In this document: positions 4,706 through 42,503 of the stretch, piece by piece
Layout of the letters: each line of letters begins with the position of its first letter
Position numbering within the stretch: the stretch's first letter is position 1
Virus record (IMG/VR): IMGVR_UViG_3300046006_001360
Coordinates: 1-58,738 of that record
Length of the DNA: 58,738 nucleotides
From: a virus
Reading direction: 5' to 3' (one strand)
Notes under the pieces: generated by a model
Databases searched by the model: none
What the model was told of the DNA's origin: nothing
Seen by the model: the letters and a program-made list of their open reading frames with translations, nothing else
Translations under genes and position numbers: made by a program

Positions 4706-6397
4706 TTATGTATTTTTTATGTTATCTATGTTGATTCTGTGAAGTTCCATGTTAAGATTCATTTCAGAATCAGTTCCAAATACTACATTTATACTACTTG
4801 GTTTAGAAGCATCTGTAGAATCATAATATTCAAATCCAGTACGATCTTTCCAACCACCTCTAACTAAAGCATATTCACCTCTTCCAATTAATACATCACC
4901 GTATTCATCAAGACCTTTAGATGGTAACTGTGCGTTTGCAGGATCTGCTTTAAATACTTCGTTCTCTTCACTCACAAACCAAACGTTAACCGAGTCAACT
5001 CCAGCTACGCTTTCTATGATAGAAACTAAATCAGATTTTGGAATCTTATCACGTCTACGATTCTTTAAGAAGTAATCAGAACATTTTGAAATTACGGTTT
5101 GACGAATAACGTCTTTGCTATATCCTTGAAACGATCTAATACTAATGTTAACTACATACTTTTTAACAATAGGATCAACAATTTTTACAACAGTTGTAAG
5201 TATCTTTTGACCGCTTTCTTCAATTAGATTATAAATCTTAGTCTTTTCTTCTTCAGATAATAAGAATAAATTCAGTGGAATGTTAAAGTAATCAGCGTTA
5301 GATGGTTTTCTTTTATTCACATCAGGAATAAGAAAAAGATAAACTACGTTATCATCAGTAAGATCATTATCATTAAATGAACTGAATGCATCAATAACGC
5401 TAAACATATTAAAGCGCTCTAAAAAGTATACATAATTATCAGCATTTGCTAAAACGTAGGCTCTACTTGTTTTTGGAGCAAGTACACGCGTTAAGAAAAC
5501 TGGTTCACTATCAGCGCCAAAGTTTATAGGTAATCCTATTCGAATTTTTAACGCTTGATTAAGATCAACAGTGTCACCTGCTAAATCATACCCATCATCG
5601 GTAAAAGAAAATTTAGGATTAGCATTATTAAAGATATTACCAGCATTACCAGCATTTGTTAAATATTCAACTCTAATTGTAACACCTAGAGCAGGAATGT
5701 GCCCAAAGTAAGTGTTACCAAAATATACGTCAATTCCACCATTAATACCTGTCTTAACTACAACACCTTTCGCGTCATACGGAATATCATAAATAGAATC
5801 ATATACTCGCCATTTTTCATTATTTATGTAAACATTAATAAAGTTGTTGTCAATCTGATATCCTCTTTTTGCATTAATTGAGTATGATTGCATTGCAAGC
5901 CCAGTTCCAGTTACTTGTTGAGATTCAACTTCACCTTGTACTACTTTAACTTCAACGGATTTTTTTGCAACAAGTTCTAATCGAGTTTCTTCTGAATTTA
6001 AAACAATAAGATATGGTAATCCTGTGCCATCATTAACCATACGTGTATAGTTAGGTATGATAACAGTATTTCCATACATATCAATTTGTTCTCCGCTATA
6101 AGATAATATTGCGGTTCCATTTGCGGAGATAGCACGAGTTGGGTTGTGCCCTGCAATTCTTGCTAAACTTTTTATTGAGACTTCACGAGACGCAGTAAAA
6201 ATATTAAGTTCAGTAATACTATCTTCAATGTAATAAAAGATAAGTTTACCCATATCAAGAACAACAGACAGAATTTGCCCGTATGCACTGGCTGGTGTAA
6301 ACACGTCACCAACTTGCTGATACTTGTTAGTTAAATAAGTTTTTACATCAGCATAGAGTTGTTCAAACGCTATCCTGTTAACTTTAAATATTTCCAT
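4706..6397 (-). CDS. Baseplate wedge protein, gp6 / baseplate J-like
   Basis: 563 residues, near the size of T4 gp6 (660). The N-terminal part (about 1-110) has the baseplate-J/gp6 pattern: a helical start, then a segment on early tail assembly (GQILSVVLDMGKLIFYYIED) and the SREVSIKSLARIAGHNPTRA region that precedes the first beta domain. The middle is beta-rich and the C-terminal third carries the VVKIVDPIVKKYVVNISI segment common in this family. In T4 gp6 forms the wedge dimers that ring the hub. Neighbours fit: the gp25-like gene ends 11 bases upstream and the giant structural gene follows. Confidence 0.85.
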   Translation of the reverse strand: MEIFKVNRIAFEQLYADVKTYLTNKYQQVGDVFTPASAYGQILSVVLDMGKLIFYYIEDSITELNIFTASREVSIKSLARIAGHNPTRAISANGTAILSYSGEQIDMYGNTVIIPNYTRMVNDGTGLPYLIVLNSEETRLELVAKKSVEVKVVQGEVESQQVTGTGLAMQSYSINAKRGYQIDNNFINVYINNEKWRVYDSIYDIPYDAKGVVVKTGINGGIDVYFGNTYFGHIPALGVTIRVEYLTNAGNAGNIFNNANPKFSFTDDGYDLAGDTVDLNQALKIRIGLPINFGADSEPVFLTRVLAPKTSRAYVLANADNYVYFLERFNMFSVIDAFSSFNDNDLTDDNVVYLFLIPDVNKRKPSNADYFNIPLNLFLLSEEEKTKIYNLIEESGQKILTTVVKIVDPIVKKYVVNISIRSFQGYSKDVIRQTVISKCSDYFLKNRRRDKIPKSDLVSIIESVAGVDSVNVWFVSEENEVFKADPANAQLPSKGLDEYGDVLIGRGEYALVRGGWKDRTGFEYYDSTDASKPSSINVVFGTDSEMNLNMELHRINIDNIKNT

Positions 6398-6408: not shown

Positions 6409-6771
6409 TTATTTTGCGAGGACACCAATGTATTTGGATCCATCTATGTATATATCAATGTAACAGAAATCCCTAACCTCGCCGGGCTGAAAAGCAACGG
6501 CAATCTCTACGCTAAATAATCCTGCTTCTGGTACAAACGCAGCAAGCTGTCCATAAAATTTATTTTGTAATTGTGAAGTGTTAAGATTAAATTCAAAAAG
6601 ATGTTCTTCAAGACTAAGACCTAAACTAGGTTGTCCAAGAACTTCCCCTTGTGATGTAAAAATGATCATACGAATTTTAGTCAGTAATGCCTCTAAAGCA
6701 TCTGACGTATCTAGCTGATTTGGGTTATAGCTAGGATCATTAACATTTCTACAGTATATTTCTGTTATCAT
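6409..6771 (-). CDS. Baseplate wedge protein, gp25-like
   Basis: 120 residues, matching the usual length of gp25/W-family baseplate proteins (about 110-135). The pattern RMIIFTSQGEVLGQPSLG followed by a leucine-rich EEHLFEF helix is characteristic of the family; the rest is a small alpha/beta domain. gp25 links the wedge to the first sheath ring and nucleates sheath assembly. It lies between the neck-like gene (upstream) and the gp6-like gene (downstream), the same pairing as in T4-type and other contractile systems. Confidence 0.85.
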   Translation of the reverse strand: MITEIYCRNVNDPSYNPNQLDTSDALEALLTKIRMIIFTSQGEVLGQPSLGLSLEEHLFEFNLNTSQLQNKFYGQLAAFVPEAGLFSVEIAVAFQPGEVRDFCYIDIYIDGSKYIGVLAK

Positions 6772-6786: not shown

Positions 6787-7518
6787 TTAGTGGAATATAA
6801 AGAACCAATCTGGACTGTTCTCGTCATCTATTTTTTGTTTGATTTCTTTAATCTCTTCCTCACCCTCTGATTTGATACCATCACTATCAACTTGAATACC
6901 TCCTGGCAAATTAAACTTGAATGTTCCAAGTATTCTACCTAACGAAATTTTTGACATTGCTGTTACGTAACGTTGAAAGTTCCAATCTTCATATAATTTG
7001 TTTTCTTCAATCTTAGCGTAGGTTTGAATAAAAACATTTTTCTTTGGATCACGGCCTAAGATTTTTAAACGGTGTGTATTTCTGTTATAGTCAAAACTAA
7101 TACGTTCTAAGATAAACGCTTGAGTTAAATCCCAATATGAATATTGAGCTGTTCTAAGAACAAGATCATCAGATTGAAACGGTGATAAAAATAATTCTGC
7201 AGCAAGAAGACGGTTATCAGAGAAATCTTTATCTACTGTACCTAGGCGACCTCCGCCATTCATTTCTTTAACCTCAAACACTGAAACTACACATTCAGGA
7301 AGTAATATACATCGTGTCTTTTTAAATTCAGGATCCGAAAACCATTTCTTTTCAATAACGTAATATTGGGTTTCAACAGCGGGACCGTAGTTTGCATGAA
7401 ACCAAGTTAAAGCTTGGTCAATGATACGATTAGCTTCACGCTCTGGAATAGAATAAGGGAGTGAACCACTTCCTGTGATTTCACCTGTTACCATTTCTAT
7501 AAGTTCTCCTCTTGTCAT
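6787..7518 (-). CDS. Virion structural protein, possibly neck or tail completion
   Basis: 243 residues beginning MTRGELIEMVTGEITGSG. A short helical N-terminus leads to EANRIIDQALTWFHANYGPAVE, then a mixed alpha/beta region and an acidic C-terminal helix (EGEEEIKEIKQKIDDE). This arrangement resembles neck or head-tail connector proteins of large myophages, but I see no diagnostic motif. It is 15 bases upstream of the gp25-like gene and downstream of a head-targeted-type gene. The structural role is inferred from context; the neck assignment is weak. Confidence 0.55.
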   Translation of the reverse strand: MTRGELIEMVTGEITGSGSLPYSIPEREANRIIDQALTWFHANYGPAVETQYYVIEKKWFSDPEFKKTRCILLPECVVSVFEVKEMNGGGRLGTVDKDFSDNRLLAAELFLSPFQSDDLVLRTAQYSYWDLTQAFILERISFDYNRNTHRLKILGRDPKKNVFIQTYAKIEENKLYEDWNFQRYVTAMSKISLGRILGTFKFNLPGGIQVDSDGIKSEGEEEIKEIKQKIDDENSPDWFFIFH

Positions 7519-7533: not shown

Positions 7534-8289
7534 TTAATCCCAAACTTCAGTATACTGTCCACCCACAATCATAACACCTTGTTTCCAGTCAAAATCTAAA
7601 CGATCTTTCTTAAACATGTAGTGGTTCTTAATGATATCTTCAGTTTCCTTTTCGGACTTACCAAGAGCAACATTAAGATCTTTAATTACATAAGCCTTAT
7701 CATAAGATTTTGTAATATGTACCGATGCATGTCTACCAATACCTTGGTCTCTTGTGTTAATTGTTTTATACTCGCTTTTCGTAGCATGCCACATTTGAAA
7801 TAAACGACTAATTAAGTCATCATTAAGTGGTTGACTTTGTGAAAATTTAATCCAATCTTTTACTTCTTTTGCAATATTAGATTTCTTAGGATTTGTTAAA
7901 TCAAACTTTTTGTAATTGTTAATATAATTAAGACCAGAAACTCCAATTCCACCGTAAGGTTCCATAGTAGCGGTTTTATCAGCATTAATAATGTCATGAT
8001 ACGTCACAGATGCTTTGACATACAATGGCTGAATATTGCAATTTTGTAAAATCTTAGCCTTTTTAGGATCTAGCCATGACCAGTCTTTTGCTTCGTATGT
8101 ATTTGTAATTCTTGCATAACCTTTTGACCACTCATAATAAGTATTGTCCTTGCCATTTTGTCCATAAGAAACTTCACGAAAATTAGAAAGCATAGCTTTT
8201 TCAAGGTCTTTTACTAAAGCAACCTCTGCAGGATTAATTCCTTTACTGTCTTCGGAAAGAAATTCATAGTATTCTTTAACGTGCTTCAT
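7534..8289 (-). CDS. Predicted internal head protein with capsid-targeting-like N-terminus
   Basis: I choose the ATG at 8289, giving 251 residues starting MKHVKEYYEFLSEDS; the longer frame back to 8370 runs into the upstream gene, whose stop lies one base before this ATG. The start matches the N-terminal pattern shared by at least nine other proteins here and by the T4 internal-protein targeting sequence MKTYQEFIAE; LSE before Asp is a possible prohead-protease cut. The rest is a soluble alpha/beta domain with EPYGGIGVSGLNYINNY and TRDQGIGRHASVHITKSYD; no family recognised. It is the only such protein inside the baseplate cassette. Confidence 0.7.
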   Translation of the reverse strand: MKHVKEYYEFLSEDSKGINPAEVALVKDLEKAMLSNFREVSYGQNGKDNTYYEWSKGYARITNTYEAKDWSWLDPKKAKILQNCNIQPLYVKASVTYHDIINADKTATMEPYGGIGVSGLNYINNYKKFDLTNPKKSNIAKEVKDWIKFSQSQPLNDDLISRLFQMWHATKSEYKTINTRDQGIGRHASVHITKSYDKAYVIKDLNVALGKSEKETEDIIKNHYMFKKDRLDFDWKQGVMIVGGQYTEVWD

Positions 8290-8290: not shown

Positions 8291-9697
8291 TTATTTTTTT
8301 GCTTTTTTAATCTCTTCTTTCTTCTTATGATCATCATGTTTAAATCCACCATCAGATTCAGATGGTTCAATTAACTCAACAATCATTGTTTCTTTGGAAA
8401 CTTTTGCAAGTTTACCAATTTCTCCATTACGAATAACTCCTTTATTTACTTCACAGTTAATGACGAAACGCTTGTTTTCAATAAAACAATCATTACAAAC
8501 ATTTGTAACGTGAAGTGGGGTATCAGCAATTTTAGAAAAGTCAAATACATTCTCTTTCATAGCCCAAGAATTGGTAATTCTTGAGTTCTTAACAGTACAG
8601 TTATAAAACCATGAACGGTCAAAAACACCCTGGATCTCACAATTGATAAATTCAATATCTTCAACTTTACAATTGTTTAACTTTGTATCTTGAAGCTGAA
8701 AACGACCTAGGTCAGTATCATAATTAAACTTTCCTTTTTTCATTCCGCCTGTAACTACTAGATCAAATAATTTGTCTCTAAGATTTCCCCATACAGCAGA
8801 TAAAGATTGGTCATCATTAATTAAATCCATTGATAACTCAATCTCAGGATAGTTCTTTTTAAACTCTCCGTACTTAATAAATGATTTGTAAATGATTTCT
8901 TGTTGAGCCATCATATCTTTAAACTTTGCACGGTCAACAGGTGAGTATTGACCGTTAAAGTTTAATGTGTTAAACATATGTAATATGAATCCGTCTACCA
9001 AACCAATTATCTTACGAGTTTTTGTTTGATAATCTTTTCCACCCATGTATCTGTATTCTAAATATCCTTTCTCCAGTTTAGTAAAATTAACTCCAAAATA
9101 CTTTTCATCAGGGATTGCCATTGTTGAACGGCTAAACTCTTCTAATGATGGAGAATAAAACATAATCTTGTTAGGTCTTAAGTTTTTAATACTTCTTGCA
9201 TATACAGATTCCTCTCTCTGTGGAAATACCGCATAAATAGGTTTTTCGTCAAAGTCAAGAATAAACTTAGCCACATTCATTTGTGGAATATTAACTAAGG
9301 TAGGTAATTTGTTTGGGTCTAAGCTAATGTTAGCATGTATAGAACATCTTTCATTAGTATAGCCATTGTCTTTAATCCACTCAAACATTTTAATTAATGT
9401 ATTACGAGCATCTTTATAAGACATTGGCCCAGTAACAAGCTCCATCATATTCTTTCCACCTGAATAATCAGGCTCAAGTTTAAAAATATCTGATGTTGGA
9501 GTAATTGGTGAATGGTATAGCGGTTTTGGTTCTTTAATATTACTAAGAGCCATAGGAATAACTACCCTTTTGCTGATATACTTTGCAATAGATCGCGACG
9601 TCTTTTCAATTGGCAAGTTTGAATAAAATTCAAATTCGTAACCAATCTTTGCGCCATCGAGTATTTCTGCCTCAGTATAAGACTTTTTAATTTTCAT
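8291..9697 (-). CDS. Amidoligase-like protein with C-terminal repeat domain
   Basis: 468 residues. Residues about 15-270 match the pattern of the Amidoligase_2 family (glutamine-synthetase-like COOH-NH2 ligases): GYEFEFY at 19-25, GKNMMELVTGP around 81-91 (family pattern ELVSPP), CSIHANISL around 118-126 and GYLEYRYMGG around 211-220 (family pattern TIEFR). Family members are thought to form amide bonds on peptides or small molecules. Residues about 330-400 look like pentapeptide or beta-helix repeats (KLNNCKVEDIEFINCEI), and the C-terminus is Lys/Glu-rich. It overlaps the zinc-ribbon gene by 11 bases. Whether it modifies virion protein or host peptidoglycan cannot be told from sequence. Confidence 0.6.
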   Translation of the reverse strand: MKIKKSYTEAEILDGAKIGYEFEFYSNLPIEKTSRSIAKYISKRVVIPMALSNIKEPKPLYHSPITPTSDIFKLEPDYSGGKNMMELVTGPMSYKDARNTLIKMFEWIKDNGYTNERCSIHANISLDPNKLPTLVNIPQMNVAKFILDFDEKPIYAVFPQREESVYARSIKNLRPNKIMFYSPSLEEFSRSTMAIPDEKYFGVNFTKLEKGYLEYRYMGGKDYQTKTRKIIGLVDGFILHMFNTLNFNGQYSPVDRAKFKDMMAQQEIIYKSFIKYGEFKKNYPEIELSMDLINDDQSLSAVWGNLRDKLFDLVVTGGMKKGKFNYDTDLGRFQLQDTKLNNCKVEDIEFINCEIQGVFDRSWFYNCTVKNSRITNSWAMKENVFDFSKIADTPLHVTNVCNDCFIENKRFVINCEVNKGVIRNGEIGKLAKVSKETMIVELIEPSESDGGFKHDDHKKKEEIKKAKK

Positions 9698-9824
9698 TTC
9701 GCTTTACCCTTAATTTTATTTCATAATTCTCTATACATTCTTCACATACTTCAGTTCCGTCCGACGCTGACTTAAGTTGACATAAGCAACCTAATTGTGT
9801 TTTACATCTTGGACATTCTGCCAT
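9687..9824 (-). CDS. Small zinc-ribbon protein
   Basis: 45 residues starting MAECPRCKTQLGCLC. It has a CxxC pair at 4-7, CLC near 13-15 and CxxC (VCEECIE) near 27-31, so it should bind one zinc ion. It starts two bases after the stop of the S1-domain gene and overlaps the start of the amidoligase-like gene by 11 bases, implying translational coupling. The conserved Cys pairs and exact packing make it a credible gene despite its length. Function unknown; nucleic acid or protein binding is typical for such ribbons. Confidence 0.65.
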   Translation of the reverse strand: MAECPRCKTQLGCLCQLKSASDGTEVCEECIENYEIKLRVKRNEN

Positions 9825-9825: not shown

Positions 9826-11031
9826 TTATGCTTCGCTTGGTAATGTTAAGAAAATTTTATCATTGTGAACTCTTTCAATAGTGACCATAACTTCATCACC
9901 TACATTGAAACGTTTCTTTTTCATCTTAATTTCTTTTTGCGAAATAAGACCTACCATATCTTTCTGTAATTTAATCAATGCACCAAACGGTTGAATTGAC
10001 ACAACTTCACCGCTACGAATAATTCCAACGTTTTGGTCTTTAAATTCTTCAAGTTCTCTTCTACGGAAAGAAGGATCTTCATCAGACAAAATAATTTTCT
10101 TATCTGGTGTAATCTCTCTAATCCAGAAGTCAACTGCATCTCCAGGTTTAAATTCAAAATTCTTGAATGATTCCTTAAGAGCTGGCGACATTTTACTGCT
10201 ATGTAATAGACCTGTAAAGATTTCATCAAACTCAACAAAGATACCGTATTTTGCAATACCTGTAACTGTTCCTGAGTATTTTGCATCAAGATCAAGTTCT
10301 TCAATTTTTGTCGGTAAAACATACGCAAGATATTTCTTATAAGAAAATACAAATGTACTACTCTCTACAAGATAATCTTCAACCATCACTGGAACAACTT
10401 TTCCTATCATACTATCAAAGTCCCTAACAACATTAGCTGCTGCAAGTGACCCAGGAAGGAATCCGTTAATACCCTGAACTTCAATAATAAATCCACCTTG
10501 GTTTTTACCCGTGATAGTTCCGTAATAAGCATTCGTTGGTTTTCCAATCTGCCCAAAGAAATCTTGTTTAATATGCGATAACTGGCCTTCATACAATGAT
10601 ACCTTAATGTAAGGTTTAATCATTTCAACTCTTACATGATATTCACGTGAACAGAATTGTTTTTTACCATCTTCTGTTTTCAAACTTTCTACAAGTTCGT
10701 CCTCAGTTGTGTTTAGCATATGAAAGAATTTCTTCTCTTGCTCTAGATTAACTGTTGCATCTATAAACCCAGTCAGTGTTGCGAGTAATTCTCGGTTTGT
10801 ACCGACTCTTACATCTACTAGTTTATAAACTTCCCCTACTTTAGGCTCTTTATTTGCCGTTTCGGTCATTCCTTGATACACTGAAAATAAATCTTCAGCA
10901 TATGATTCATGGCAATAGATTTTATCACCATTTGTACTACTCAGTTTCGTGTTAGGTACTAACTTGCCGTTTGTTGCAAGTACTGCCCAATAGTTGTCAT
11001 CGAAAATTTCGTCTTGTTTTTTTAGTTCCAT
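9826..11031 (-). CDS. Protein with three S1 RNA-binding domains
   Basis: 401 residues. After a divergent N-terminal region come three S1-type OB folds: about 168-233 (GTITGKNQGGFIIEVQGING), 252-317 (GTVTGIAKYGIFVEFDEIF) and 334-399 (GEVVSIQPFGALIKLQKDM). Each has the family G-x-V-x-x-I...G-x-hydrophobic pattern and a VGD or PGD turn. This is the architecture of part of ribosomal protein S1, which brings mRNAs lacking strong Shine-Dalgarno sites to the ribosome; binding phage mRNA or controlling late translation is inferred. It sits unexpectedly in the baseplate operon with its own late-type promoter just upstream. A structural role cannot be excluded. Confidence 0.8.
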   Translation of the reverse strand: MELKKQDEIFDDNYWAVLATNGKLVPNTKLSSTNGDKIYCHESYAEDLFSVYQGMTETANKEPKVGEVYKLVDVRVGTNRELLATLTGFIDATVNLEQEKKFFHMLNTTEDELVESLKTEDGKKQFCSREYHVRVEMIKPYIKVSLYEGQLSHIKQDFFGQIGKPTNAYYGTITGKNQGGFIIEVQGINGFLPGSLAAANVVRDFDSMIGKVVPVMVEDYLVESSTFVFSYKKYLAYVLPTKIEELDLDAKYSGTVTGIAKYGIFVEFDEIFTGLLHSSKMSPALKESFKNFEFKPGDAVDFWIREITPDKKIILSDEDPSFRRRELEEFKDQNVGIIRSGEVVSIQPFGALIKLQKDMVGLISQKEIKMKKKRFNVGDEVMVTIERVHNDKIFLTLPSEA

Positions 11032-11084: not shown

Positions 11085-13847
11085 TTAGCTCGTAAAGAAC
11101 CCGTATGTGTTTTTACCTTGCTTGCACCACTTTGCAAGATATAAAAGATACACTACATTTGACATAGTTAATCTTTCAAACGGTGGTAAGTCATCTTGTA
11201 TAAATGGAAGTAATTTAGTTACGATAGGACCAATGTTAATTTTTACATTAGTTTTTACAGTTTGTCCATTCTTAGTGTACTTAAGTGGAACGTTAACCGT
11301 TGGTATAGAACCAGCGCTTACTTCTGATGCAGTTTCACCATCAATTTGTTTAGGTCCACGATTCCCAACTACAAACCAAGATGCACCTGGCGCAACCATT
11401 CCAATAGGAAACGGCCACCCTGGATTCACTACAAAAATAAATGGGCCAGGACATATTCCACATAAAGTTAGTCCTATTACAATCACCGCAAGTGGTGATG
11501 GCACTACAGCAAGTGGTGTCCAGATGATAGGCATAGGAATCTTAATCAAACCACTTGGCGTAGGTATAAGAATACCGATAGGCCAGTATGTTGGAAGTAA
11601 ATTTACAGTAGTTGCTCTCTTACAATACTTTTTCCAATAACTTAAATTTGTAATGGGTGGTGAGTTTGGTTGAGGATTTCCATTATACTTTACATCATCA
11701 GGCGGAAGTCCTGCCGCCGCTGCTTCCGCTGCTGCTTTCTTATCAGCTTCAGGAGCATCTGCTGGTAATGGCAAAGGTTCAGGTTTTACTGGCCACGGTA
11801 TGATACGAATTTTTTCACCATCTAATGTTCCTGCTGATGGCGCTCCACCACCTTGCATTTGACAACCTCCTGATGCTAAATCTCTAATTATTTGAGGAAA
11901 GTCATCAATGTATTTTTCTATAACTGTGATTTTGTCCCGAGTTTCAATGTATTCTTTATAAATCTTATTAAATACATCTTGTTGAGATTTTCTCTTACTA
12001 TCAAGTTCTGTAGTTTTATTTGTACCGTTCTGAATAAAAATAGAACCATCATTTAATAAATAGTATCCAAAGTTTTTGCAATATTCTACTACAGCATTAA
12101 AATTATCAGTTGCAAGTTTTTCAATCGTAAAAGGTAAAGCTCTTTCTTGAGAACTTAAATCCCCGCTTTTCTTTATAACATCATCAGGATCATCAGTAGG
12201 TTTTATACCTTTAGATACTGATGTAGCTGAATTAAAAAAATCAACTCGAGTTTGCCACATGCTCCCTTCCCAGCGCTGTGAACCACCTTTTCTGTTAAAT
12301 GCATAATCAGTAGCTGAACCTTCTACTAAACCTAATCTACTATATTCAAAAGCATTATTTTGATTTATGTCAATGTAAATAGGTTTCTGTAGTGCTGTTA
12401 ATGTAGTGTTAATAGTATCACTCCACCTATCAAAATAACGATCTAATAATAAGATATCGTTAGTGAACGGTTTAATAATAGGAGGTAGACCTTTAAGTAT
12501 GTCAACATACGGAGAAGATAACTTACCACCTGACGTAAATGGAATAAGTGTATATTGCGAACCTTTAACACCACGTGTGTAAGGAACAGATGTAACACTT
12601 GCTTTAACCTCAGCAGACTTATCTAAAGCAAAATAAGTTGGTTGCTCACTCCGTACAGCGTCAAGCTGAGATGTTGCAGTATTAATTGCTGTAATGATTT
12701 CATCTTGTCTTGTAAGTAATTCTTTTATTTGCTTTGTCTTATTTGCGTTATAATTGTTTGGTAAGATCCACTTTTCGGAATTATTCGTTGATGTAGCTGG
12801 TGCAGTTGCAGTTGCTTCTATTTTAGTTGTCCAAGTATATGTATAAAAAAGATCTTCTAATTTCTTTTTATTTGCAATGAACTCATCGTTAAGAGTAGTT
12901 CTTTGAGTAATAAGATCATTAAATTTTTGATAGTACGCAATGTAACCTTGATACTGGCCTTCATAAATACCCCAAATGATTTTCTTTGTCCAAACTTCAG
13001 CTTCCATTTTGCCAAGTTTATCTTTAAGAATAATCATTTCATCAATCTTCTTCTTAAGATTCTCAGATTCATCAAAGATTTTTTTCGTAGTGTCAACTGG
13101 GTTAGGTTCTTCGACTAAAAATAAACGATTATTTTTTGCCGCGTTATTTTTAGTATAGATAACTTTAACTATACCTTCTTTAACTGGGCAGTTAACATTT
13201 TGTCCACCAATTCGCATGATAGTTTCTCCGCACATAACTTTGTCACCCACTTGTTTTAGAATTTCAACTACGGCTGTTTTTGAACCAGCCTTTGCCAATC
13301 CTTTTACAGTGTTTAATGTGACAAGTGTTTTAGCAGGTGGAGCAAGAGGATTTGCTGGTTCTTTTTCAGGAGCAGGTACAAATGGCGTGTCAGGTAAAAA
13401 TTCTGCGGGTGCAGCAGGTTCAGGTATCTTAATATCACATTTAGCATCAATTGCTTCAGACAGCTGAACATTACTTAAAATGTTTGGTGTTGCTTTTCTT
13501 ACTTCACATTCCTCTGACGACTGCTTAACAACTTTTTCAATTTCTTCTTTAGAATAGCCGGGTAAGATATCCGCCGTTGGCGCTGGGCAGTCTGTAATGT
13601 TTACATCTTTGACCACGCTCGGATTTGTAGTAAACCCATTATCATTCAAATCGGAATTAGGATCTGCCGCATTTTCATTCTGTCCTACACTTATCTTACC
13701 TATTTTGCCGTATGAATCATTCATTACTGCTATAAGTTCAGACAAAGATTTTCCCTCATAGCCAGTTGGCATATAAGGAACTCCATCAATTACTTTTGCT
13801 TGTTGTTTACTTGCGTTAATTAACGCTTCTGCTGCTGTATCTGCCAT
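11085..13847 (-). CDS. Large baseplate-associated protein with barrel-sandwich domain and hydrophobic Pro-rich region
   Basis: 920 residues. Residues about 190-245 (VVEILKQVGDKVMCGETI then CPVKEGIVKVIY) look like a biotinyl/lipoyl-type barrel-sandwich hybrid, but there is no modifiable Lys in the hairpin, so it is probably a structural module. Residues about 255-350 and 370-415 are predicted coiled coil. A striking Pro/Gly-rich hydrophobic stretch follows near 745-830 (PLAVVPSPLAVIVIGLTLCG and FIFVVNPGWPFPIGMVAPG). It lies between the S1 gene and the gp5-like spike gene, ten bases from the latter, which suggests a hub, spike-tip or ejection function. I do not recognise the full-length family. 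Confidence 0.7.
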   Translation of the reverse strand: MADTAAEALINASKQQAKVIDGVPYMPTGYEGKSLSELIAVMNDSYGKIGKISVGQNENAADPNSDLNDNGFTTNPSVVKDVNITDCPAPTADILPGYSKEEIEKVVKQSSEECEVRKATPNILSNVQLSEAIDAKCDIKIPEPAAPAEFLPDTPFVPAPEKEPANPLAPPAKTLVTLNTVKGLAKAGSKTAVVEILKQVGDKVMCGETIMRIGGQNVNCPVKEGIVKVIYTKNNAAKNNRLFLVEEPNPVDTTKKIFDESENLKKKIDEMIILKDKLGKMEAEVWTKKIIWGIYEGQYQGYIAYYQKFNDLITQRTTLNDEFIANKKKLEDLFYTYTWTTKIEATATAPATSTNNSEKWILPNNYNANKTKQIKELLTRQDEIITAINTATSQLDAVRSEQPTYFALDKSAEVKASVTSVPYTRGVKGSQYTLIPFTSGGKLSSPYVDILKGLPPIIKPFTNDILLLDRYFDRWSDTINTTLTALQKPIYIDINQNNAFEYSRLGLVEGSATDYAFNRKGGSQRWEGSMWQTRVDFFNSATSVSKGIKPTDDPDDVIKKSGDLSSQERALPFTIEKLATDNFNAVVEYCKNFGYYLLNDGSIFIQNGTNKTTELDSKRKSQQDVFNKIYKEYIETRDKITVIEKYIDDFPQIIRDLASGGCQMQGGGAPSAGTLDGEKIRIIPWPVKPEPLPLPADAPEADKKAAAEAAAAGLPPDDVKYNGNPQPNSPPITNLSYWKKYCKRATTVNLLPTYWPIGILIPTPSGLIKIPMPIIWTPLAVVPSPLAVIVIGLTLCGICPGPFIFVVNPGWPFPIGMVAPGASWFVVGNRGPKQIDGETASEVSAGSIPTVNVPLKYTKNGQTVKTNVKINIGPIVTKLLPFIQDDLPPFERLTMSNVVYLLYLAKWCKQGKNTYGFFTS

Positions 13848-13857: not shown

Positions 13858-14637
13858 TTAAGGTACTGTGACAGTTACGATTTTTGAAGTAGACGCAGTT
13901 TCAGCTGCCGCTGCTGCCGAAGCATTTGCACCAGGTGAAGGAGGCCATTTAAGATCCACTGCTGCGGATAAAGATTTAAGGAATGCCCATAGAGGTTCAG
14001 CACCTACTGCACTAAAATTTCCTGTAGGACCTAGCTGTGTTAGCTTGGTTCCGTTCATAATACAAGTTTCAGCGGTTTCTTCAATTTTAGTTGCTGCTGT
14101 AACATTTATGTTTGCTTGTGTAGTGATATTACAATCTGGTCCTATAAGTTCAATAATACTTTGTGAGTCAGCATGTTCTATTGTTATACTTACATCAGGA
14201 TTAATTGTGATATGTGATTTCTTAAAGTAAATTTCAAATCCTTTAGACGGCGTGTAGAAAACTCTCATCTGCTCATCCTCGTCATACATAATAACGTGTG
14301 AGTTTAAATAAGAATCTGCAATCTCATCTTTAACTGCTTGATTAATGTATGCAATACTATGCCACTCTGGATTATATAATTCGCCCTCAGAAAAACTAAG
14401 TCTTACAATTGCTTTATTTTTTGGTATTGATATATCGCCAAACCCGCCATCTGCTCCGCCTCCAAATGTCTTGGAAGCACCCACAGATGCCCATGGAATA
14501 TCAGCGTCTGGAATATCATCAAAGATTCCAAATACTTTAATTTTACAACGTCCTTCTTGAAGCGGATCATTATTATCCACAACTTCACCGTAGAATATCT
14601 TACCTATTAAATCTTGTTTACTGAGTCCTTTTACCAT
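13858..14637 (-). CDS. Baseplate central spike, gp5-like OB-fold protein
   Basis: 259 residues. The N-terminal 13-75 (GKIFYGEVVDNNDPLQEGRC then KVFGIFDD and ADIPWASV) is the gp5/VgrG-type OB fold with the typical DPLxxGR turn and LPWA-like motif. A beta-rich region (DPDVSITIEHADSQSIIEL onwards) should form the trimeric beta-helix spike; the C-terminus is Ala/Ser-rich. Unlike T4 gp5 there is no lysozyme domain, so peptidoglycan digestion must come from elsewhere. It begins at the last base of the 661-residue tube-cap gene and sits between that and the 920-residue gene, as expected for a hub operon. Confidence 0.85.
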   Translation of the reverse strand: MVKGLSKQDLIGKIFYGEVVDNNDPLQEGRCKIKVFGIFDDIPDADIPWASVGASKTFGGGADGGFGDISIPKNKAIVRLSFSEGELYNPEWHSIAYINQAVKDEIADSYLNSHVIMYDEDEQMRVFYTPSKGFEIYFKKSHITINPDVSITIEHADSQSIIELIGPDCNITTQANINVTAATKIEETAETCIMNGTKLTQLGPTGNFSAVGAEPLWAFLKSLSAAVDLKWPPSPGANASAAAAAETASTSKIVTVTVP

Positions 14638-23842: not shown

Positions 23843-24301
23843 TTACAATTCTCCAAGCATGAACACTTTACCGTTCTCACCTTTCATAGTGTAAAAGATT
23901 GTGTCAATTTTATCATCTTCATCATAATCAGAATCAATCCATTGGCAAGGTTTTCTATCAATGATTAAACAATCTTCGCCAGGCTCATCACCTGTTCTGC
24001 TATAGTTGTGTCCAATACTCATCATGCTTGGCTTTATTTTGGCTTTGCCAACATCACCTGGTTTACAAGTATAAAGATCAACTCCATCAGCTTCTGATTT
24101 GAATGTATCCCCTTTCTTAGCGTTTTTCCAAAACTTGTTCCATTCAGAAGAATCGTCTCCAATACGGTCATCAATAGTTTCACCTGGAAACCAAGCAGTT
24201 CCTTCATTAAGTTCTTCTTCGGTTAGAGTGATATCTGCAATTTCATTTGTATATTCGCTCTTTTCGTTTACAAAAGATTCAAAAGTTTTAAAATGTTTCA
24301 T
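23843..24301 (-). CDS. Predicted internal head protein, targeting-like N-terminus
   Basis: 152 residues starting MKHFKTFESFVNEKSEY, almost the same first 13 residues as the next gene although the rest is unrelated. LNE before Gly at about 32 is a good protease-type site. The mature part is acidic, with DCLIIDRKPCQWIDSDYDED and a C-terminal IFYTMKGENGKVFML strand pair. No family recognised. A late-type promoter overlaps the end of the upstream gene just before this start. Confidence 0.7.
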   Translation of the reverse strand: MKHFKTFESFVNEKSEYTNEIADITLTEEELNEGTAWFPGETIDDRIGDDSSEWNKFWKNAKKGDTFKSEADGVDLYTCKPGDVGKAKIKPSMMSIGHNYSRTGDEPGEDCLIIDRKPCQWIDSDYDEDDKIDTIFYTMKGENGKVFMLGEL

Positions 24302-24321
24302 ACTTTATAGTTTATTTTATA

Positions 24322-24335
24322 GACTATATATCTTT
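24322..24335 (-). promoter_or_regulatory. Late-type promoter candidate
   Basis: Minus-strand AAAGATATATAGTCTATAAAAT overlaps the stop of the 484-residue gene and lies about 20 bases before the ATG at 24301. It matches the recurrent GATATATA pattern. Confidence 0.35.
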
Positions 24336-25778
24336 AGATAGTTTAGCCTTTTTAAGTAAATTTCTTCTGCGTGATGCCTCGCGTTGTTTTTCTTTATGTG
24401 CTTCCCACTTAACAGGATCCGCCATTAGCCTTGCTTTAGAAGCGGCAGATTGTTCTCGTTGTTTTTTAAGGTACTCCGCAAGTAAAACAGGATCCGCGTA
24501 AATTTTAGCTTTAAGAGCCGCAGATTGTTCTCGTTGTTTTTGACGATGTGCCTCAAGACGAATAGGATCTGCTTTAATCTTTTCCATAAGTAAGCGTGAT
24601 GCCTCACGATTCTTTTCTTTTGCTAACTCAACAGATTTTTCCAATTCATCAGAATAGTCAAGCATCTCTGGAAATTCTTTGATGTATTCTTCACGTTCAG
24701 ATTTTGTCATCCTACCATATTTACTAATTTCGATTTGTAACCAATCAGATTTACGAATACTTACACCTATTGATAACTCTTGACCTACACCCCAACCAGA
24801 GTAAGATATGATTTTACCATATTCCATGATTTCATCAAGTGAAGCTCCGTTAATCTTAAAGAGTTTACATTTTGGATTTTCATCTTTACCATCACCAAAG
24901 ATTAGTAAATCATCAAACCCGGAATAATCATAGTAGTTTAATATCTGAACTGCAAGAAAAATATTTGAAAGTTCTTCTTTGTTTCTTAAACCGTTATGAA
25001 CTCGCGTAATAAGTTCATTCTTATATGTAAGGAATGTTTCAGGATGTTGCGATAATGTCATGATAAACGTCTCAGCATCAACATATGATATACCATCTTT
25101 AAGTAGTGGGTATACATAGGCTTTAAGATACGAAGATGATAAAGTACGGAACTCAACATCAATGTTAAACATCTTATTAAGTTTATCCAAAGCATCTAAT
25201 CCATTGGAGACTTTGCCAATACCACACAAGCGACCCATTTTACCCTTTACTTCAATTCCTCTTTCAGTAGCTGGATCCCAAAGATCTCCTTTAGTTCCTT
25301 TTTGGAAAGTAGTAAAACATGAGAACATTAATTCGCTTGGACCCATATCACCAGGCTGTTCTTTAAATAATTCCTCAAAGAACTCTGGTGTAAAAAAGTT
25401 GTAATGATTGGTTAAAACTGATATGATATCTACAGGTTCGTCAGATAAAGATTCTGCTGTAATGTACGCTGGATTTTTAATCATATCCGTTAAGATGTCA
25501 AGATTTTCAGTACCGCCATTATAGAATGCTTTAATTAAGCGTCCTATGATTTTGGTACCGGTGGTTCTTGCAGACGGTGGAAGACGGTCAAATATAATGT
25601 CAAGAATTTCTGCAAAGCGGTCTTCACAAAGAACGTTCTTAATTGCATTTAGTTTCTCGATGTATCTTTCATCATCAACGTTTAAAACACCGAGTAATAC
25701 TTTTTTATTGCTATTTGGTTTCTTAAGGTAAATGTTAGAGCCTTCTGCAGTAATCTCATGATATGTATTAATACTCAT
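24324..25778 (-). CDS. PD-(D/E)XK-like protein with C-terminal 25-residue repeats
   Basis: 484 residues. Around 149-180 the pattern E149...KGTKGDLWD (D165)...GIEVKGKMGR (E176, K178) fits the restriction-endonuclease-like catalytic layout. The C-terminus (about 388-470) has three and a half tandem repeats of 25 residues with the core KQREQSAA...ADPV; two are nearly identical at the DNA level 75 bases apart. Similar charged repeats occur in DNA-binding and endonuclease proteins of phages. It sits inside the head-targeted block but has no clear targeting site itself. Nuclease activity is inference; stop is TAG. Confidence 0.6.
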   Translation of the reverse strand: MSINTYHEITAEGSNIYLKKPNSNKKVLLGVLNVDDERYIEKLNAIKNVLCEDRFAEILDIIFDRLPPSARTTGTKIIGRLIKAFYNGGTENLDILTDMIKNPAYITAESLSDEPVDIISVLTNHYNFFTPEFFEELFKEQPGDMGPSELMFSCFTTFQKGTKGDLWDPATERGIEVKGKMGRLCGIGKVSNGLDALDKLNKMFNIDVEFRTLSSSYLKAYVYPLLKDGISYVDAETFIMTLSQHPETFLTYKNELITRVHNGLRNKEELSNIFLAVQILNYYDYSGFDDLLIFGDGKDENPKCKLFKINGASLDEIMEYGKIISYSGWGVGQELSIGVSIRKSDWLQIEISKYGRMTKSEREEYIKEFPEMLDYSDELEKSVELAKEKNREASRLLMEKIKADPIRLEAHRQKQREQSAALKAKIYADPVLLAEYLKKQREQSAASKARLMADPVKWEAHKEKQREASRRRNLLKKAKLSKDI

Positions 25779-25830
25779 AGGTATATAATTTAATGGATAA
25801 TAAAAGTGTCTTTAATGTCATTAAAATTGC

Positions 25831-26151
25831 TTATTGTTTAACTTGTAAGTACTTGTTAAACAGATTTTTGGCATGTTTCCAATCTCTTGGTTTAACATCC
25901 ATAACCCAGTTAGGAATATAAACTCGGCCTTCAGATTCAGAATTAAAACGAATAATCCAACCTGTGTATTTTGAATTAGCAACCTCAGAGATATCATTTA
26001 TGTTATGATCTGCCCATTGATAAACTCCTTCAACAAATCCACCGCAGATACCAGCGTATGAAGAATCCCCGATAGTAGAGAAACGATTGTAAATAGCAAT
26101 GTTAAATCCAATGTTTCCGTCCTGCTCTAAGTAATCTTGCATTGATTTCAT
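25831..26151 (-). CDS. Small protein, possible internal head protein
   Basis: 106 residues from the ATG at 26151 (MKSMQDYLEQDGN). The longer frame to 26202 only translates the duplicated promoter/terminator cassette, so I reject it. The start weakly resembles the targeting pattern and YLE could be a protease site. The rest has FNIAIYNRFSTIGDSSYAG and GWIIRFNSESEGRVYIPNWV, beta-rich, with a Lys-rich C-terminus. Family not recognised. Confidence 0.6.
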   Translation of the reverse strand: MKSMQDYLEQDGNIGFNIAIYNRFSTIGDSSYAGICGGFVEGVYQWADHNINDISEVANSKYTGWIIRFNSESEGRVYIPNWVMDVKPRDWKHAKNLFNKYLQVKQ

Positions 26152-26154
26152 ATT

Positions 26155-26238
26155 GTGTATAGTTTTATATTGATAGTTAAAATTAATACAAAAAACCCAC
26201 AAATAAAAATTTGTGGGACTAAAGTTATTAACAATTTT
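26155..26238. repeat. 84-bp duplicated intergenic cassette, copy 1
   Basis: Identical to 36157-36240 except for one base (A at 26218, T at 36220). It holds, on the minus strand, the box TTGTTAATAACTTTAG, an intrinsic terminator and the promoter-like end TATTAATTTTAACTATCAATA. It separates two genes with unrelated products, as does copy 2. Confidence 0.95.
26190..26217 (-). terminator. Intrinsic terminator in duplicated cassette
   Basis: 9-bp stem CCCACAAAT / ATTTGTGGG with a 4-base loop, followed on the minus strand by six T. It ends the transcript of the 280-residue gene. Confidence 0.85.
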
Positions 26239-26241
26239 CTG

Positions 26242-27084
26242 TTATTTAATACGGTACTCAGTAGCAATATTACGTAAATCTTTGGTGGGTAAATTTTCAA
26301 TTGCTTTAAGAATAATCTTTCTTTCACCTGCAAGTTTTTGAATATCGCTTCCACTAATACCTTTAATTGTATAAGTTTCAGTAGGTTTAAACCCTAAGAT
26401 ATTTTGTAGTGCATCTCCAGCACCAAGTCTTCCTTTATTATCACCGTGCAATTTATCTACATTATTAATGAAAGAAGTTAATAAGTCTTTACCTGACACA
26501 GCGGTAGTCTTTTCAACCACAAAGTCATTCCCACTTTTATAACAAGCAGCAATAGAATAAGTTCCAGACGGTTCAACCTTTGGGCGAATACCTGCCGCAA
26601 GATCTATAAAGTATTGATCTTTTTCTTTATCACTTACCGGAGATAACCCTCCGCTGTATATGATACTAAAGATTTGATTAACTTTGATTCTTGAACTCCC
26701 AAGAACTTTCATAAATCCAACTTGCTTTGATGATTTCACTGAAACTTTTTCACCGTTTGGCATTGTAACATCAGAAAAGATTGTATCAGCTTCACCGTAA
26801 TTATTTGAGTTGCTTCCTTTAAGTAAAATAGCAACAAGATCTTCAGTGTATTTTGAAACTTCTCGAGCATCTTTATCAAGAACATCTAATAAATGTTCAA
26901 AGAAATTTATTTCATTAAGTACCGCACCTTCATTCAAAGCATTAGCTTTATCATTTAAGATGTCACTATAATTTACTACTTTAGTGTTACCTCCTGAATT
27001 AACATATGCCTCTAAATACTGAAATGATTTAGCAGAAGTTGATTCGTTAAGTTCCATCCAACTATTATAATTCTTAAGACTCAT
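26242..27084 (-). CDS. Predicted internal head protein, possible nuclease fold
   Basis: 280 residues starting MSLKNYNSWMELNESTS, with LNE before Ser at 14 and a second LNE before Gly at 52 as protease-type sites. Around 98-120 (GEADTIFSDVTMPNGEKVSV then KSSKQVGF) there is an Asp followed by S-V-K, a layout seen in some PD-(D/E)XK restriction enzymes. The remainder is soluble alpha/beta. The nuclease reading is weak, the head-targeting reading moderate. It is followed by the duplicated terminator cassette. Confidence 0.65.
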   Translation of the reverse strand: MSLKNYNSWMELNESTSAKSFQYLEAYVNSGGNTKVVNYSDILNDKANALNEGAVLNEINFFEHLLDVLDKDAREVSKYTEDLVAILLKGSNSNNYGEADTIFSDVTMPNGEKVSVKSSKQVGFMKVLGSSRIKVNQIFSIIYSGGLSPVSDKEKDQYFIDLAAGIRPKVEPSGTYSIAACYKSGNDFVVEKTTAVSGKDLLTSFINNVDKLHGDNKGRLGAGDALQNILGFKPTETYTIKGISGSDIQKLAGERKIILKAIENLPTKDLRNIATEYRIK

Positions 27085-27098
27085 TGTTTTACTGTTTT

Positions 27099-27554
27099 TT
27101 AAAATTTCATCTGCTTTACTATACGCAGATTTTTTTGTGGGTTAAAGACTAATAAAGATTCCCCATCACCCCAATCTCTAGGATCGTAGTCCCAATGAAA
27201 GAAACCATCACACTTTCCAATAAAGGGTTTAATTAACTTATTACGTTCTCTTACATCAGGCTGCGCTGTAAGATCAGCAACCAATTCTTCAAAATCTATT
27301 CCTAGCACTTCTGATAACTTTTTAGCATCATCTTGTGAAAGCATGTTACCAGATACTCTTACTTCATATGTATATGCTTCTTCAAGTCCATCATCAATAG
27401 AATTACTATGATATGCTTTAGCAAACACAGGGTTTGCGGTTACCCAAACTGGTGCAGGTTTAAAAGAAGAAATCTTAGTACCTGACGTATGATAAGCTAC
27501 GTTATTAAAACTGCTTTCATATAAGAAATTTTCAAATGTACTAATATGTTTCAT
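27099..27554 (-). CDS. Predicted internal head ADP-ribosyltransferase-like protein
   Basis: 151 residues starting MKHISTFENFLYESSF; LYE before Ser at 13 is a protease-type site, leaving about 138 residues. The mature part looks like the small ART fold of phage polyvalent proteins: YHTSGTKISSFKP (21-33, first motif), VWVTANPVFAKAYHS (36-50, strand then helix), then KCDGFFHW (114-121) and GESLLVFNP (131-139, third motif region). T4 packages the ART Alt and injects it to modify host RNA polymerase; this could be a much smaller counterpart. Catalysis is inferred from pattern only. Confidence 0.55.
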   Translation of the reverse strand: MKHISTFENFLYESSFNNVAYHTSGTKISSFKPAPVWVTANPVFAKAYHSNSIDDGLEEAYTYEVRVSGNMLSQDDAKKLSEVLGIDFEELVADLTAQPDVRERNKLIKPFIGKCDGFFHWDYDPRDWGDGESLLVFNPQKNLRIVKQMKF

Positions 27555-27575
27555 TACTTTTCGTTAAATCCTATG

Positions 27576-27905
27576 TTAGTTCATATCTTGAGTGTTACCT
27601 TGACGCATGTCTCCGTCTGGTGCGTCTGGTGTATTCATTAAACCTTCACACGTAGATTTCATTCCTTCCATGAATAAATCCATCCAAGCTTCAGCTTCTT
27701 TTAGATAACCATCAGCTTTATGTTCAGTGTTATCATCATTATGATATTCGTTACATTCAGTCATTGCCATTTCCATACATTCTTTTAGTTTATTACATAA
27801 ACTTTCAGACATAGCTGGATTTGTTGATACACCCATTCCTGACGGCGTTGCTTCTGATGTTTCAGTTTCTTTAACGAAATCACTAAAACTTTTAATTACT
27901 CCCAT
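27576..27905 (-). CDS. Predicted internal head protein, targeting-like N-terminus
   Basis: 109 residues starting MGVIKSFSDFVKETETSEA; TSE before Ala at 18 is a possible site. The rest is acidic and Met-rich with three Cys and a helical stretch (LCNKLKECMEMAMTECNEYH), ending in a Pro/Asp/Asn tail. No enzyme motif. It lies within the run of targeting-type genes, 16 bases from its upstream neighbour. Confidence 0.6.
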   Translation of the reverse strand: MGVIKSFSDFVKETETSEATPSGMGVSTNPAMSESLCNKLKECMEMAMTECNEYHNDDNTEHKADGYLKEAEAWMDLFMEGMKSTCEGLMNTPDAPDGDMRQGNTQDMN

Positions 27906-27920
27906 TTTGTGTTATTTATT

Positions 27921-28109
27921 TTATGCGCCCATTGCGTCCTCTGAGTCATCATAGTCTGTTTCACCGGCACCGCTATCTTCTGCACTACCGTCGCCATCAA
28001 CGTAAACTTTATCTCCGTCTTTAGCAGCTTGAGCTAAGGCTTGATCTTTTTCTTTATCAGTAGTTTCGTCTCCGATAAATTCTTCGTATGTTTTAATTAT
28101 GTTTTTCAT
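27921..28109 (-). CDS. Small acidic predicted internal head protein
   Basis: 62 residues: a targeting-like start (MKNIIKTYEEFIGDETT; compare T4 MKTYQEFIAE) followed by an extremely acidic, Gly/Asp/Ser-rich tail that is probably disordered. The start overlaps the stop of the 384-residue gene by one base. Such an acidic peptide might act as head core or DNA mimic; neither is shown. Confidence 0.6.
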   Translation of the reverse strand: MKNIIKTYEEFIGDETTDKEKDQALAQAAKDGDKVYVDGDGSAEDSGAGETDYDDSEDAMGA

Positions 28110-29263
28110 TATTCTTTAGGTTTTTCTTCGTTAGGAGTTTCTTCCTTAGGTTCTTCCTTTTTTTCGTCACCGCCTACAAGTTCATTAATTACTCCATAGA
28201 CTGCTAATGCAAGACCACCGTATTTCATAAACTTGATAGCCATACCAAATCCTGGGATAGCAAAGCCAAGTCCTTTTTCTGCTAGACCTTGTAAATCCAT
28301 AACACCTTTCTTAAAAGTAGACTCTGCAAGATATCCCGCAGCAATTCCAACAAGCCCTGCAACAACTGGGAATTTAAAAGGCCCAGGTGCACTTGCAATT
28401 TTGGTTGCAAGAATAGACATTCTTTCCAATCCTGTCTCAGCAGCAGAAGCAACTTTAGCTTCTATTTTATGAAACACTGAAAATGGAGGCATGTGTGCAA
28501 GTTTACTCATGATAGATGAAATGAATGGTATTTGTAAACCACCTTTTGCTTCCGCATGGTCACTTTCAAATAATTCGCATTCACTAAGAATATCATCTAT
28601 TGAATAATTTTCTTTAAGCGTTTCAGCTACCGCATAGTAAAATGAGGATTCAAATGCTTGTATATATGATTCTTCAGTAGTTGCTGCTTTTTCTCCACCT
28701 TTTACCAATTCTCCAACGAAATCTCCAGTTGCCCATTTAGCAACCGCTCCACCCATTGCAGCAAGGTTTTTACCTTCCTCTGTAATTTTCTTGCGTTTAT
28801 CAGAATCTTTAAGATATGGCTGAATTTTTGCTTTAATCTTTTCTTTAGCCTTTTCAACAGAAGCACGAGCAGTATCTTTTGCTAAGTTCCATGCTTTTAA
28901 CAATACTTCTTTAACCTTACCTAAAACAGATTTAAGTGGCGCCATAAGTTTACCGCCAAACTTTAAAGCAGCTTGTGATTTTGCACCAAGTTTATCTGCA
29001 TAGTCTTTTCCCTTTTCTTTTATCTTTTCTTGTGCAGCAGCGGCAAGTGCCTTAAACTTATCAGCAAAACTTTCTTCATTAATACTTAAACAGGTTTCGA
29101 ATAAAGTATCTATAAGACCTTCGTTAATAAAGAACTGTAATGACTCGCTTTCTTCTAAAGAAGCACCACCTTTTTCAGCACAAGCTAAAAGAAATACTTC
29201 TTTAGATTTTGCCGTATGTCTAACGTCATAGGTTTCAATTATAAACTCTGTGTAATTCAGCAT
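28109..29263 (-). CDS. Predicted internal head protein, helical, membrane-active-looking
   Basis: 384 residues starting MLNYTEFIIETYD, the closest match to the T4 sequence MKTYQEFIAE (Y-x-E-F-I-x-E). Further protease-type sites follow (FINE before Gly at 48; SINE at 63). Residues 65-160 are amphipathic Lys/Ala helix, and the C-terminal part has hydrophobic Gly/Ala-rich stretches (about 298-314 and 331-364) before a Lys/Glu/Pro tail. It could be a pilot protein that helps DNA cross the membrane, or a core protein. It is first gene of its unit, with a late-type promoter. Confidence 0.65.
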   Translation of the reverse strand: MLNYTEFIIETYDVRHTAKSKEVFLLACAEKGGASLEESESLQFFINEGLIDTLFETCLSINEESFADKFKALAAAAQEKIKEKGKDYADKLGAKSQAALKFGGKLMAPLKSVLGKVKEVLLKAWNLAKDTARASVEKAKEKIKAKIQPYLKDSDKRKKITEEGKNLAAMGGAVAKWATGDFVGELVKGGEKAATTEESYIQAFESSFYYAVAETLKENYSIDDILSECELFESDHAEAKGGLQIPFISSIMSKLAHMPPFSVFHKIEAKVASAAETGLERMSILATKIASAPGPFKFPVVAGLVGIAAGYLAESTFKKGVMDLQGLAEKGLGFAIPGFGMAIKFMKYGGLALAVYGVINELVGGDEKKEEPKEETPNEEKPKE

Positions 29264-36156: not shown

Positions 36157-36240
36157 GTGTATAGTTTTATATTGATAGTTAAAATTAATACAAAAAACCC
36201 ACAAATAAAAATTTGTGGGTCTAAAGTTATTAACAATTTT
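36157..36240. repeat. 84-bp duplicated intergenic cassette, copy 2
   Basis: One mismatch to 26155-26238 over 84 bp. Contains GTTAATAAC box, terminator and promoter-like end. Lies between a glycosyltransferase-like gene and the 72-residue gene. Confidence 0.95.
36192..36219 (-). terminator. Intrinsic terminator in duplicated cassette
   Basis: 9-bp stem CCCACAAAT / ATTTGTGGG, 4-base loop and six T on the minus strand; ends the glycosyltransferase operon 39584 to 36239. Confidence 0.85.
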
Positions 36241-36982
36241 ACCATTGTTTTCCTATATCATCTAATGTTCTAACAACCCTAACGGGTATTGGAACTTGTC
36301 TTAATTTGCTATCATCAAAATTATTTAATACTGATAGACGTTTAATACTTTCAGCATTACCAAAATGTAACTTGGAATTTACGTCAGAATTTTCATTGGT
36401 AAGATATGAATATACCTTTAAGCCTTTTATGTATTCTGCACCCATGATATAACACAAATCAGCAAAATGATTAGCTGAAAATAATGATGAAAAGTAAAAA
36501 TAGTTATTATCTAATTCTTTTAAAATAGGAAAATCCCAAACACAAATATCAGTTCTTAATACAATTACCAAGTCATATTTAACATTAGTTTCTTCAACGT
36601 AAGTTTCATATAGTTTTATACATTCTTCTAACGAATATAACTGTGATAAGCAATTGTTAAAATTGCGTAAACGGTCATCTCCGCCAGGCAGCCTATCATG
36701 TAATTTTTTAAACAGATTGTCATTGCTTATTACATAAGAAGGCTCAGACAGTATTCTAATAGGTTTCCATTTTTCAACAAATGTTTTAACATCAGTTATA
36801 TCAGACGGGCATTCATTCATACCGCTCCAAGTAGAAAAACCATACCCTTCATTTGTGTTTTCCCACAGGTGAGCAAAAACATCTACTTCACCTTGACTAA
36901 AAATTTTATTAGACTGTGTAGAAAAACACTTTTCATTATTTACAAACCGAGGTTGACCAAAATAAAGTACCGCAATTTTCAT
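36239..36982 (-). CDS. Glycosyltransferase-like protein
   Basis: 247 residues. It starts MKIAVLYFGQPRFVNNEKCF, continues VDVFAHLWENTNEG and has VLRTDICVW (about 141-149) at the place of a nucleotide-sugar metal site, a pattern of uncharacterised GT-A-like proteins of phages and viruses. It probably transfers a sugar to a phage or host acceptor; the acceptor is unknown. The start overlaps the stop of the GT-FkbM fusion by one base, so the three genes form an operon. Confidence 0.6.
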   Translation of the reverse strand: MKIAVLYFGQPRFVNNEKCFSTQSNKIFSQGEVDVFAHLWENTNEGYGFSTWSGMNECPSDITDVKTFVEKWKPIRILSEPSYVISNDNLFKKLHDRLPGGDDRLRNFNNCLSQLYSLEECIKLYETYVEETNVKYDLVIVLRTDICVWDFPILKELDNNYFYFSSLFSANHFADLCYIMGAEYIKGLKVYSYLTNENSDVNSKLHFGNAESIKRLSVLNNFDDSKLRQVPIPVRVVRTLDDIGKQW

Positions 36983-39584: not shown

Positions 39585-39615
39585 ATAATATATTTACAAT
39601 TGATTTCTTACATTG

Positions 39616-39641
39616 AAAAGAGCCGGATTAAAGGCTCTTTT
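39616..39641 (-). terminator. Terminator hairpin
   Basis: 9-bp stem AAAAGAGCC / GGCTCTTTT around an 8-base loop that includes the stop codon of the basic protein gene; the T-run on the minus strand is short, so termination may be partial. Confidence 0.6.
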
Positions 39642-39954: not shown

Positions 39955-39991
39955 AAATGTAGTTTTGCGTGATTAAAGATCACATGGTTAT

Positions 39992-40006: not shown

Positions 40007-40023
40007 AAGTAATACAATAGTTC

Positions 40024-41079: not shown

Positions 41080-41099
41080 CGTAACTAGATTTTTAGTAT

Positions 41100-42501: not shown

Positions 42502-42503
42502 GA

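Follow-up and report, generated by a model that had tools for sequence, protein, structure and literature searches.

The data indicate that the huge phages studied here retain an intact, divergent Amidoligase_2-type ligase among the core genes of their tail module. While the Amidoligase_2 family is known in phages, the new element is a tail-operon variant, which has an added linker and beta-helix and lacks the usual partner genes. The analyzed DNA, referred to below as the window, comprises positions 1–58,738 of IMG/VR record IMGVR_UViG_3300046006_001360; this 58,738-base window is the entire virus record, yet it is probably a fragment of a genome. The gene is located on the minus strand at 8291–9697 and encodes a protein of 468 aa, with an ATG start codon and a TAA stop codon, in exact agreement with the open reading frame reported in an initial annotation of this DNA. 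The comparison with three relatives gave dN/dS values of 0.04–0.11, which are similar to those of the wedge genes. We therefore regard this open reading frame as a real and intact gene that is maintained by purifying selection. As to function, our tentative proposal, which we place slightly below an even chance, is that a competent amidoligase is made together with the tail and would ligate amides on a tail, baseplate, or neck protein in the cytoplasm.

Domain architecture and predicted fold

The N-terminal part of the protein, aa 16–245 (8963–9652; this and the following parts are on the minus strand), is a glutamine-synthetase-like amidoligase domain, which was assigned from an AlphaFold model with pLDDT mostly >90, from PDB matches, and from Pfam family PF12224. 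It is followed by a helical linker domain at aa 246–318 (8744–8962), defined by the secondary structure of the model, and by a pentapeptide-like beta-helix at aa 322–424 (8426–8734), supported by both the model and profile matches, with N325, R423, and G425 invariant. The charged C-terminal tail at aa 441–468 (8294–8377), which has 8 basic and 8 acidic among its 28 residues, was modeled with low confidence (pLDDT about 40–65). The complete model had a pLDDT of 87.8 and a pTM of 0.83. The 50 best PDB fold matches were almost all glutamine synthetases, with a best E-value of 5.5e-5 and probability up to 1.00, and the rest were pentapeptide proteins. The whole-length TM-scores were low (about 0.2–0.26), as can be expected of a multi-domain protein whose beta-helix is absent from the targets, and local E-values were relied on instead. 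Among the viral models in BFVD the best full-length match was a phage protein without characterization, and most matches, including one of Agrobacterium phage Atu_ph07, were phage "amidoligase enzymes."

At the level of sequence families, the window protein matched Pfam Amidoligase_2 (PF12224) with an E-value of 0.0017 and 18.7 bits, which is below the curated cut-off of 22, while its relative L049 scored 22.9 bits, above the cut-off. Of 50 relatives in the family, 26 matched PF12224 at E ≤ 0.01, the best of them at 3.8e-10, and 15 matched a Pfam pentapeptide family. A single-protein sequence search of the PDB gave no meaningful match, the NCBIfam and PADLOC searches with the protein returned nothing, and the PHROGs search returned families of unknown function only. 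The predicted glutamine synthetase fold is nevertheless settled by the combination of the relatives, the profile comparison, and the AlphaFold model. Hence, the Amidoligase_2-type domain proposed in the initial annotation is upheld by the matches of relatives to PF12224, the fold, and the retained motifs, and the pentapeptide- or beta-helix-like region proposed to follow it is seen both in the AlphaFold model and in profile matches to MfpA. The family profile matched this pentapeptide-repeat protein at 5.8e-5 over the C-terminal part. The two share the beta-helix repeat profile, but here the beta-helix is a C-terminal domain and is near neutral, with 17 basic and 16 acidic residues in aa 321–440. 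This charge does not point to DNA mimicry, and such a role was not considered further for that reason.

Conservation of the active-site motifs

The motifs quoted in the initial annotation are all present, which are GYEFEF (aa 19–24), ELVTGP (aa 86–91), CSIHANI (aa 118–124), and LEYRYMGG (aa 213–220). In 78 distinct sequences of the family, the invariant residues were G19, E21, and E23 of the GxExE motif, a predicted metal/ATP-site strand (9626–9643; all motifs are on the minus strand), D77, S79, G80, and G81 of EPDYSGG (9455–9475), E86 and T89 of ELVTGP (9425–9442), K199, Y200, G202, and N204 of KYFGVNF (9083–9103), and E214, R216, and G219 of LEYRYMGG (9038–9061), which contains the ExR motif of glutamine-synthetase-like ligases. 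Residues K144 and R161 were likewise invariant. The RCSIHAN motif (9329–9349), with the predicted metal ligand H121/N123, had H/N in 71 of the 78 sequences and Q/S in the remaining 7 (L010, L064, L069, L073, L075, L080, and L081), in which the rest of the active site is intact. According to the tree, the change from HxN to QxS occurred twice independently, and both positions were altered each time. Because H121 and N123 vary only as a pair, while the other positions are invariant, this looks like retuning rather than decay.

The same residues were compared with those shared by six canonical phage amidoligases, which are E34, E36, D54, S56, E62, H99, H101, Y176, N180, E191, and R193. By order, E21/E23 correspond to E34/E36, D77 and S79 to D54 and S56 (D54-G-S56), E86 to E62, H121/N123 to H99/H101, Y200 and N204 to Y176 and N180, and E214 and R216 to E191 and R193. 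The pairing of E86, H121, Y200, N204, E214, and R216 was made by hhalign, which covers E86 onward, while that of GxExE and D-x-S was read by eye from two alignments. Ten of the 11 equivalent positions are conserved in the family, the exception being the HxH pair, in which the first histidine is kept in 71 of 78 sequences and the second position is N. The amidoligases of Atu_ph07 and of locus L012, which the family matched with 98% probability in hhalign, pass the Pfam cut-off yet carry HxN, and therefore HxH does not define the whole Amidoligase_2 family. The Amidoligase_2 family (PF12224; Iyer et al. 2009, as cited in later papers) has the same glutamine synthetase fold, with the GxExE, D-x-S, E, H, N, and ExR motifs in the order seen here; the differences are HxN or QxS in place of HxH, the score of the window protein below the cut-off, the added linker and beta-helix, and the lack of a linked amidotransferase. 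The loss of catalytic residues, which the initial annotation had set as the test against its proposal, was not seen in the alignment with phage amidoligases. The best reading of these sequences is that the protein is catalytically competent.

Position of the gene in the tail operon

The initial annotation had placed the gene next to hub and wedge genes, which agrees with the PHROGs matches on the minus strand of the window. Upstream is a gp5/gpV-like baseplate hub spike protein (13858–14637; PHROG 430, 2.7e-13), while downstream are a neck/head–tail adaptor Ad2-like protein (6787–7518; PHROG 211, 7.8e-13) and the gp25-like (6409–6771; PHROG 261, 5.5e-5) and gp6-like (4706–6397; PHROG 219, 1.3e-22) baseplate wedge proteins. 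The constant upstream neighbor is a 401-aa S1-domain protein (9826–11031, minus strand; Pfam S1 5e-25 in 3 stretches). The zinc ribbon and the tagged protein, between which the gene had also been placed, do flank it, but both are clade-specific, and the conserved part is the order hub–S1–amidoligase–neck–gp25–gp6. The zinc-ribbon-like protein of 45 aa with four Cys (9687–9824, minus strand) overlaps the amidoligase start codon and is found in close relatives only; the pattern used to search for it matched in 5 of 94 loci. The protein on the other side, of 251 aa (7534–8289, minus strand), starts with MKHVKEYYEFLSED at 8289, one base past the amidoligase stop codon, in the slot between the amidoligase and neck genes, and had no family match in profile searches, Pfam and PHROGs among them. 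This interval is variable, and the small genes in it differ between phages. The 920-aa protein after the spike (11085–13847) gives way to different proteins in the majority of relatives; by eye, its region of about aa 180–250 resembles a biotinyl/lipoyl-type barrel.

The order hub–spike–S1–amidoligase–neck–gp25–gp6 was nearly fixed in 94 loci. Because these loci had been picked by the amidoligase, the sampling was repeated through gp6, where a locus was counted as evaluable when it contained the neck gene and 2.5 kb or more of sequence upstream of that gene. The amidoligase was present in 65 of 65 evaluable loci, a count that describes the clade rather than all phages with such a wedge, since the best 80 gp6 loci are weighted toward near relatives and share members with the first sample. 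The pairwise distances of the amidoligase tracked those of gp6 (r = 0.95), S1 (0.949), gp25 (0.91), and the neck protein (0.90). The median gap between the amidoligase and the next gene is 4 bases, and the amidoligase is probably translationally coupled to the neck and wedge genes. In rearranged, more distant loci the gene was still near the hub or gp25/neck genes in 4 of 5 (L010, L015, L017, and L018), while in the 735-kb phage (L016) it is far from the wedge genes. The constant gene order may be a legacy of ancestry and not the sign of a common task.

Within the tail operon, the S1-domain protein and the amidoligase are equally constant, and the former is not an obvious tail protein. Previous discussion of S1 proteins in huge phages has concerned the hijacking of translation and not a place in the tail operon.

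Distribution and relatives

A single-sequence search of IMG/VR found 12 homologous loci, and an alignment search found at least 509, the 80 best of which were retained. Six uncultured huge-phage records of 462–735 kb carry the gene. The matches in bacterial genomes were limited to two short MAG contigs, which are probably phage sequence, and therefore a host was not inferred from them. The largest genomes described in PMC7162821 are in the Mahaphage clade, which has predicted Bacteroidetes hosts. The gene is absent from Lak, PAU, PTm5, pT24, MA9V-1, and MaF61 despite shared gp6 and gp25, and therefore the amidoligase is not indispensable for building such tails; the last five of these are cultured jumbo or large phages, mostly of Bacteroidota. 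PAU gp14, PTm5 ORF-171, and pT24_245, which are located beside gp25 and have similar length, were suspected to be remote homologues and were rejected. A second, weak amidoligase-like match was seen in a 642-kb phage (LR756502.1, 208759–209004; L111).

The closest cultured relative, and the only one found, was the 500-aa amidoligase AUZ94978.1 of Agrobacterium phage Atu_ph07 (7.2e-17), which was detected by an unfiltered family HMM and a genome search and missed under default filters. Searches started from the Atu_ph07 and UFV-P2 proteins each found only the starting protein itself. AUZ94978.1 also has the HxN motif and is located among structural genes, at a distance of two genes from the portal. 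Many products of this cluster are virion proteins detected by mass spectrometry. It differs in that no beta-helix was aligned, it has a long N-terminal insert, and it lies outside any wedge operon.

Partner genes and capsid-targeting sequences

The known phage amidoligases are found in a cassette with a glutamine amidotransferase, a COOH.NH2 ligase, an ATP-grasp protein, and often a cyclotransferase, and these cassettes have been proposed to alter cell-wall peptides against superinfection. The amidoligases of the early peptidoglycan-modification cassettes (UFV-P2/LUZ24, phiEco32-like, RIO-1/HP1, and phi14:2) have the same catalytic-domain family and motif positions as the window enzyme. However, they are located near replication genes together with their partners, whereas the window enzyme has no such partners beside it and is flanked by hub, S1, and neck/wedge genes. 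None of the four partners was found in the amidoligase operon, where the neighbors in 94 loci are tail genes. GATase_6 was absent from five whole huge-phage genomes, and the cyclotransferase GGACT was present in some huge-phage genomes, far from the amidoligase.

The N-terminal capsid-targeting sequence by which a protein is packaged and injected, as T4 Alt, was matched by 0 of 94 amidoligase N-termini, using a pattern of our own, which is approximate and finds 5 other proteins in the window. In the window regions 23843–29263 and 53068–53835 several unrelated proteins share the N-terminal F-x-x-F-[VIL]-x-E, which resembles the T4 capsid-targeting sequence, and these tagged proteins are probably packaged.

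Possible function of the amidoligase

By analogy with the superfamily, the N-terminal domain would use ATP and metal to phosphorylate a carboxylate, and the attack of an amine on the phosphorylated carboxylate would then give an amide or isopeptide bond. Docking would be the task of the C-terminal beta-helix, and the late tail operon would provide tail proteins as substrates in the cytoplasm, where a glutamine-synthetase-like ligase would act because it needs ATP. A mechanistic precedent is the Pup ligase PafA, an enzyme with a glutamine-synthetase-like fold that forms isopeptide bonds between proteins; PafA did not turn up in the 50 listed PDB fold matches. While the fold, the motifs, and the constancy of the operon were observed, we infer the activity, the substrate, the timing, and any presence in the virion. 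A tail, baseplate, or neck protein is the likeliest substrate, given the tight packing and probable coupling with the neck and wedge genes, the missing capsid-injection tag and cell-wall-type partner genes, and the need for cytoplasmic ATP. The modification of host cell-wall peptides, which the initial annotation had also considered, is less favored, because the cassette partners are missing and a virion-borne ligase would lack ATP outside the cytoplasm.

An enzyme directed at the host, which would act late on peptidoglycan precursors or host proteins in superinfection exclusion or takeover and merely reside in the tail operon, seems unlikely to us. The proposals found for phage amidoligases, such as those of the phiEco32/LUZ24 type, with which the protein shares motifs, are of this kind, and GGACT is encoded elsewhere in some of the huge-phage genomes. 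However, GATase, COOH.NH2 ligase, ATP-grasp, and GGACT do not adjoin the gene, GATase_6 is missing in five whole genomes, and the phi14:2 early-cassette genes are away from structural genes, while the amidoligase is tied to the tail module. The constant place among structural genes, together with a beta-helix that is plausible as a docking module, could instead be explained by a pseudo-enzyme, in which a glutamine-synthetase-like fold took on the role of a baseplate or neck component and catalysis was lost. The two independent replacements of H121/N123 by Q/S fit this explanation, but the remaining active-site positions are invariant across the family and the variable two change together, and we consider it somewhat less probable still than a host-directed enzyme.

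The amidoligase could also be a partner of the S1-domain protein, modifying S1 or the ribosome for late translation as RimK acts on S6. S1 is its constant neighbor, their distances track each other essentially as well as those of the amidoligase and gp6, and S1 has been suggested as a means by which huge phages redirect translation (PMC7162821). On the other hand, all operon genes show similar tracking, and in the 634–735 kb phages no such S1 gene was seen within about 12 kb of the amidoligase; we consider this partnership quite improbable.

If the proposed ligation of tail, baseplate, or neck proteins is true, an amide-bond-making enzyme matures the tails of the largest phages, amidoligases gain a role outside cell-wall modification, and mass shifts are predicted on tail proteins. 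The initial annotation knew of no described tail role for amidoligases, and none was found in the literature searched. To our knowledge, an amide-bond-forming maturation enzyme has not been described for contractile tails. The known covalent cross-linking of virions, as in HK97, is autocatalytic and takes place in the capsid. It is more doubtful that a dedicated ligase covalently cross-links or modifies tail proteins at assembly universally in a large clade of huge phages, as the first virion-maturation enzyme with a glutamine synthetase fold. Even if the proposed role is false, a catalytic-looking enzyme in every evaluable copy of the tail operon calls for explanation. Elsewhere in the window, at 36239–52551, glycosyltransferase-, methyltransferase-, and nucleotidyltransferase-like genes, recognized by eye, form a run, perhaps for surface glycans.
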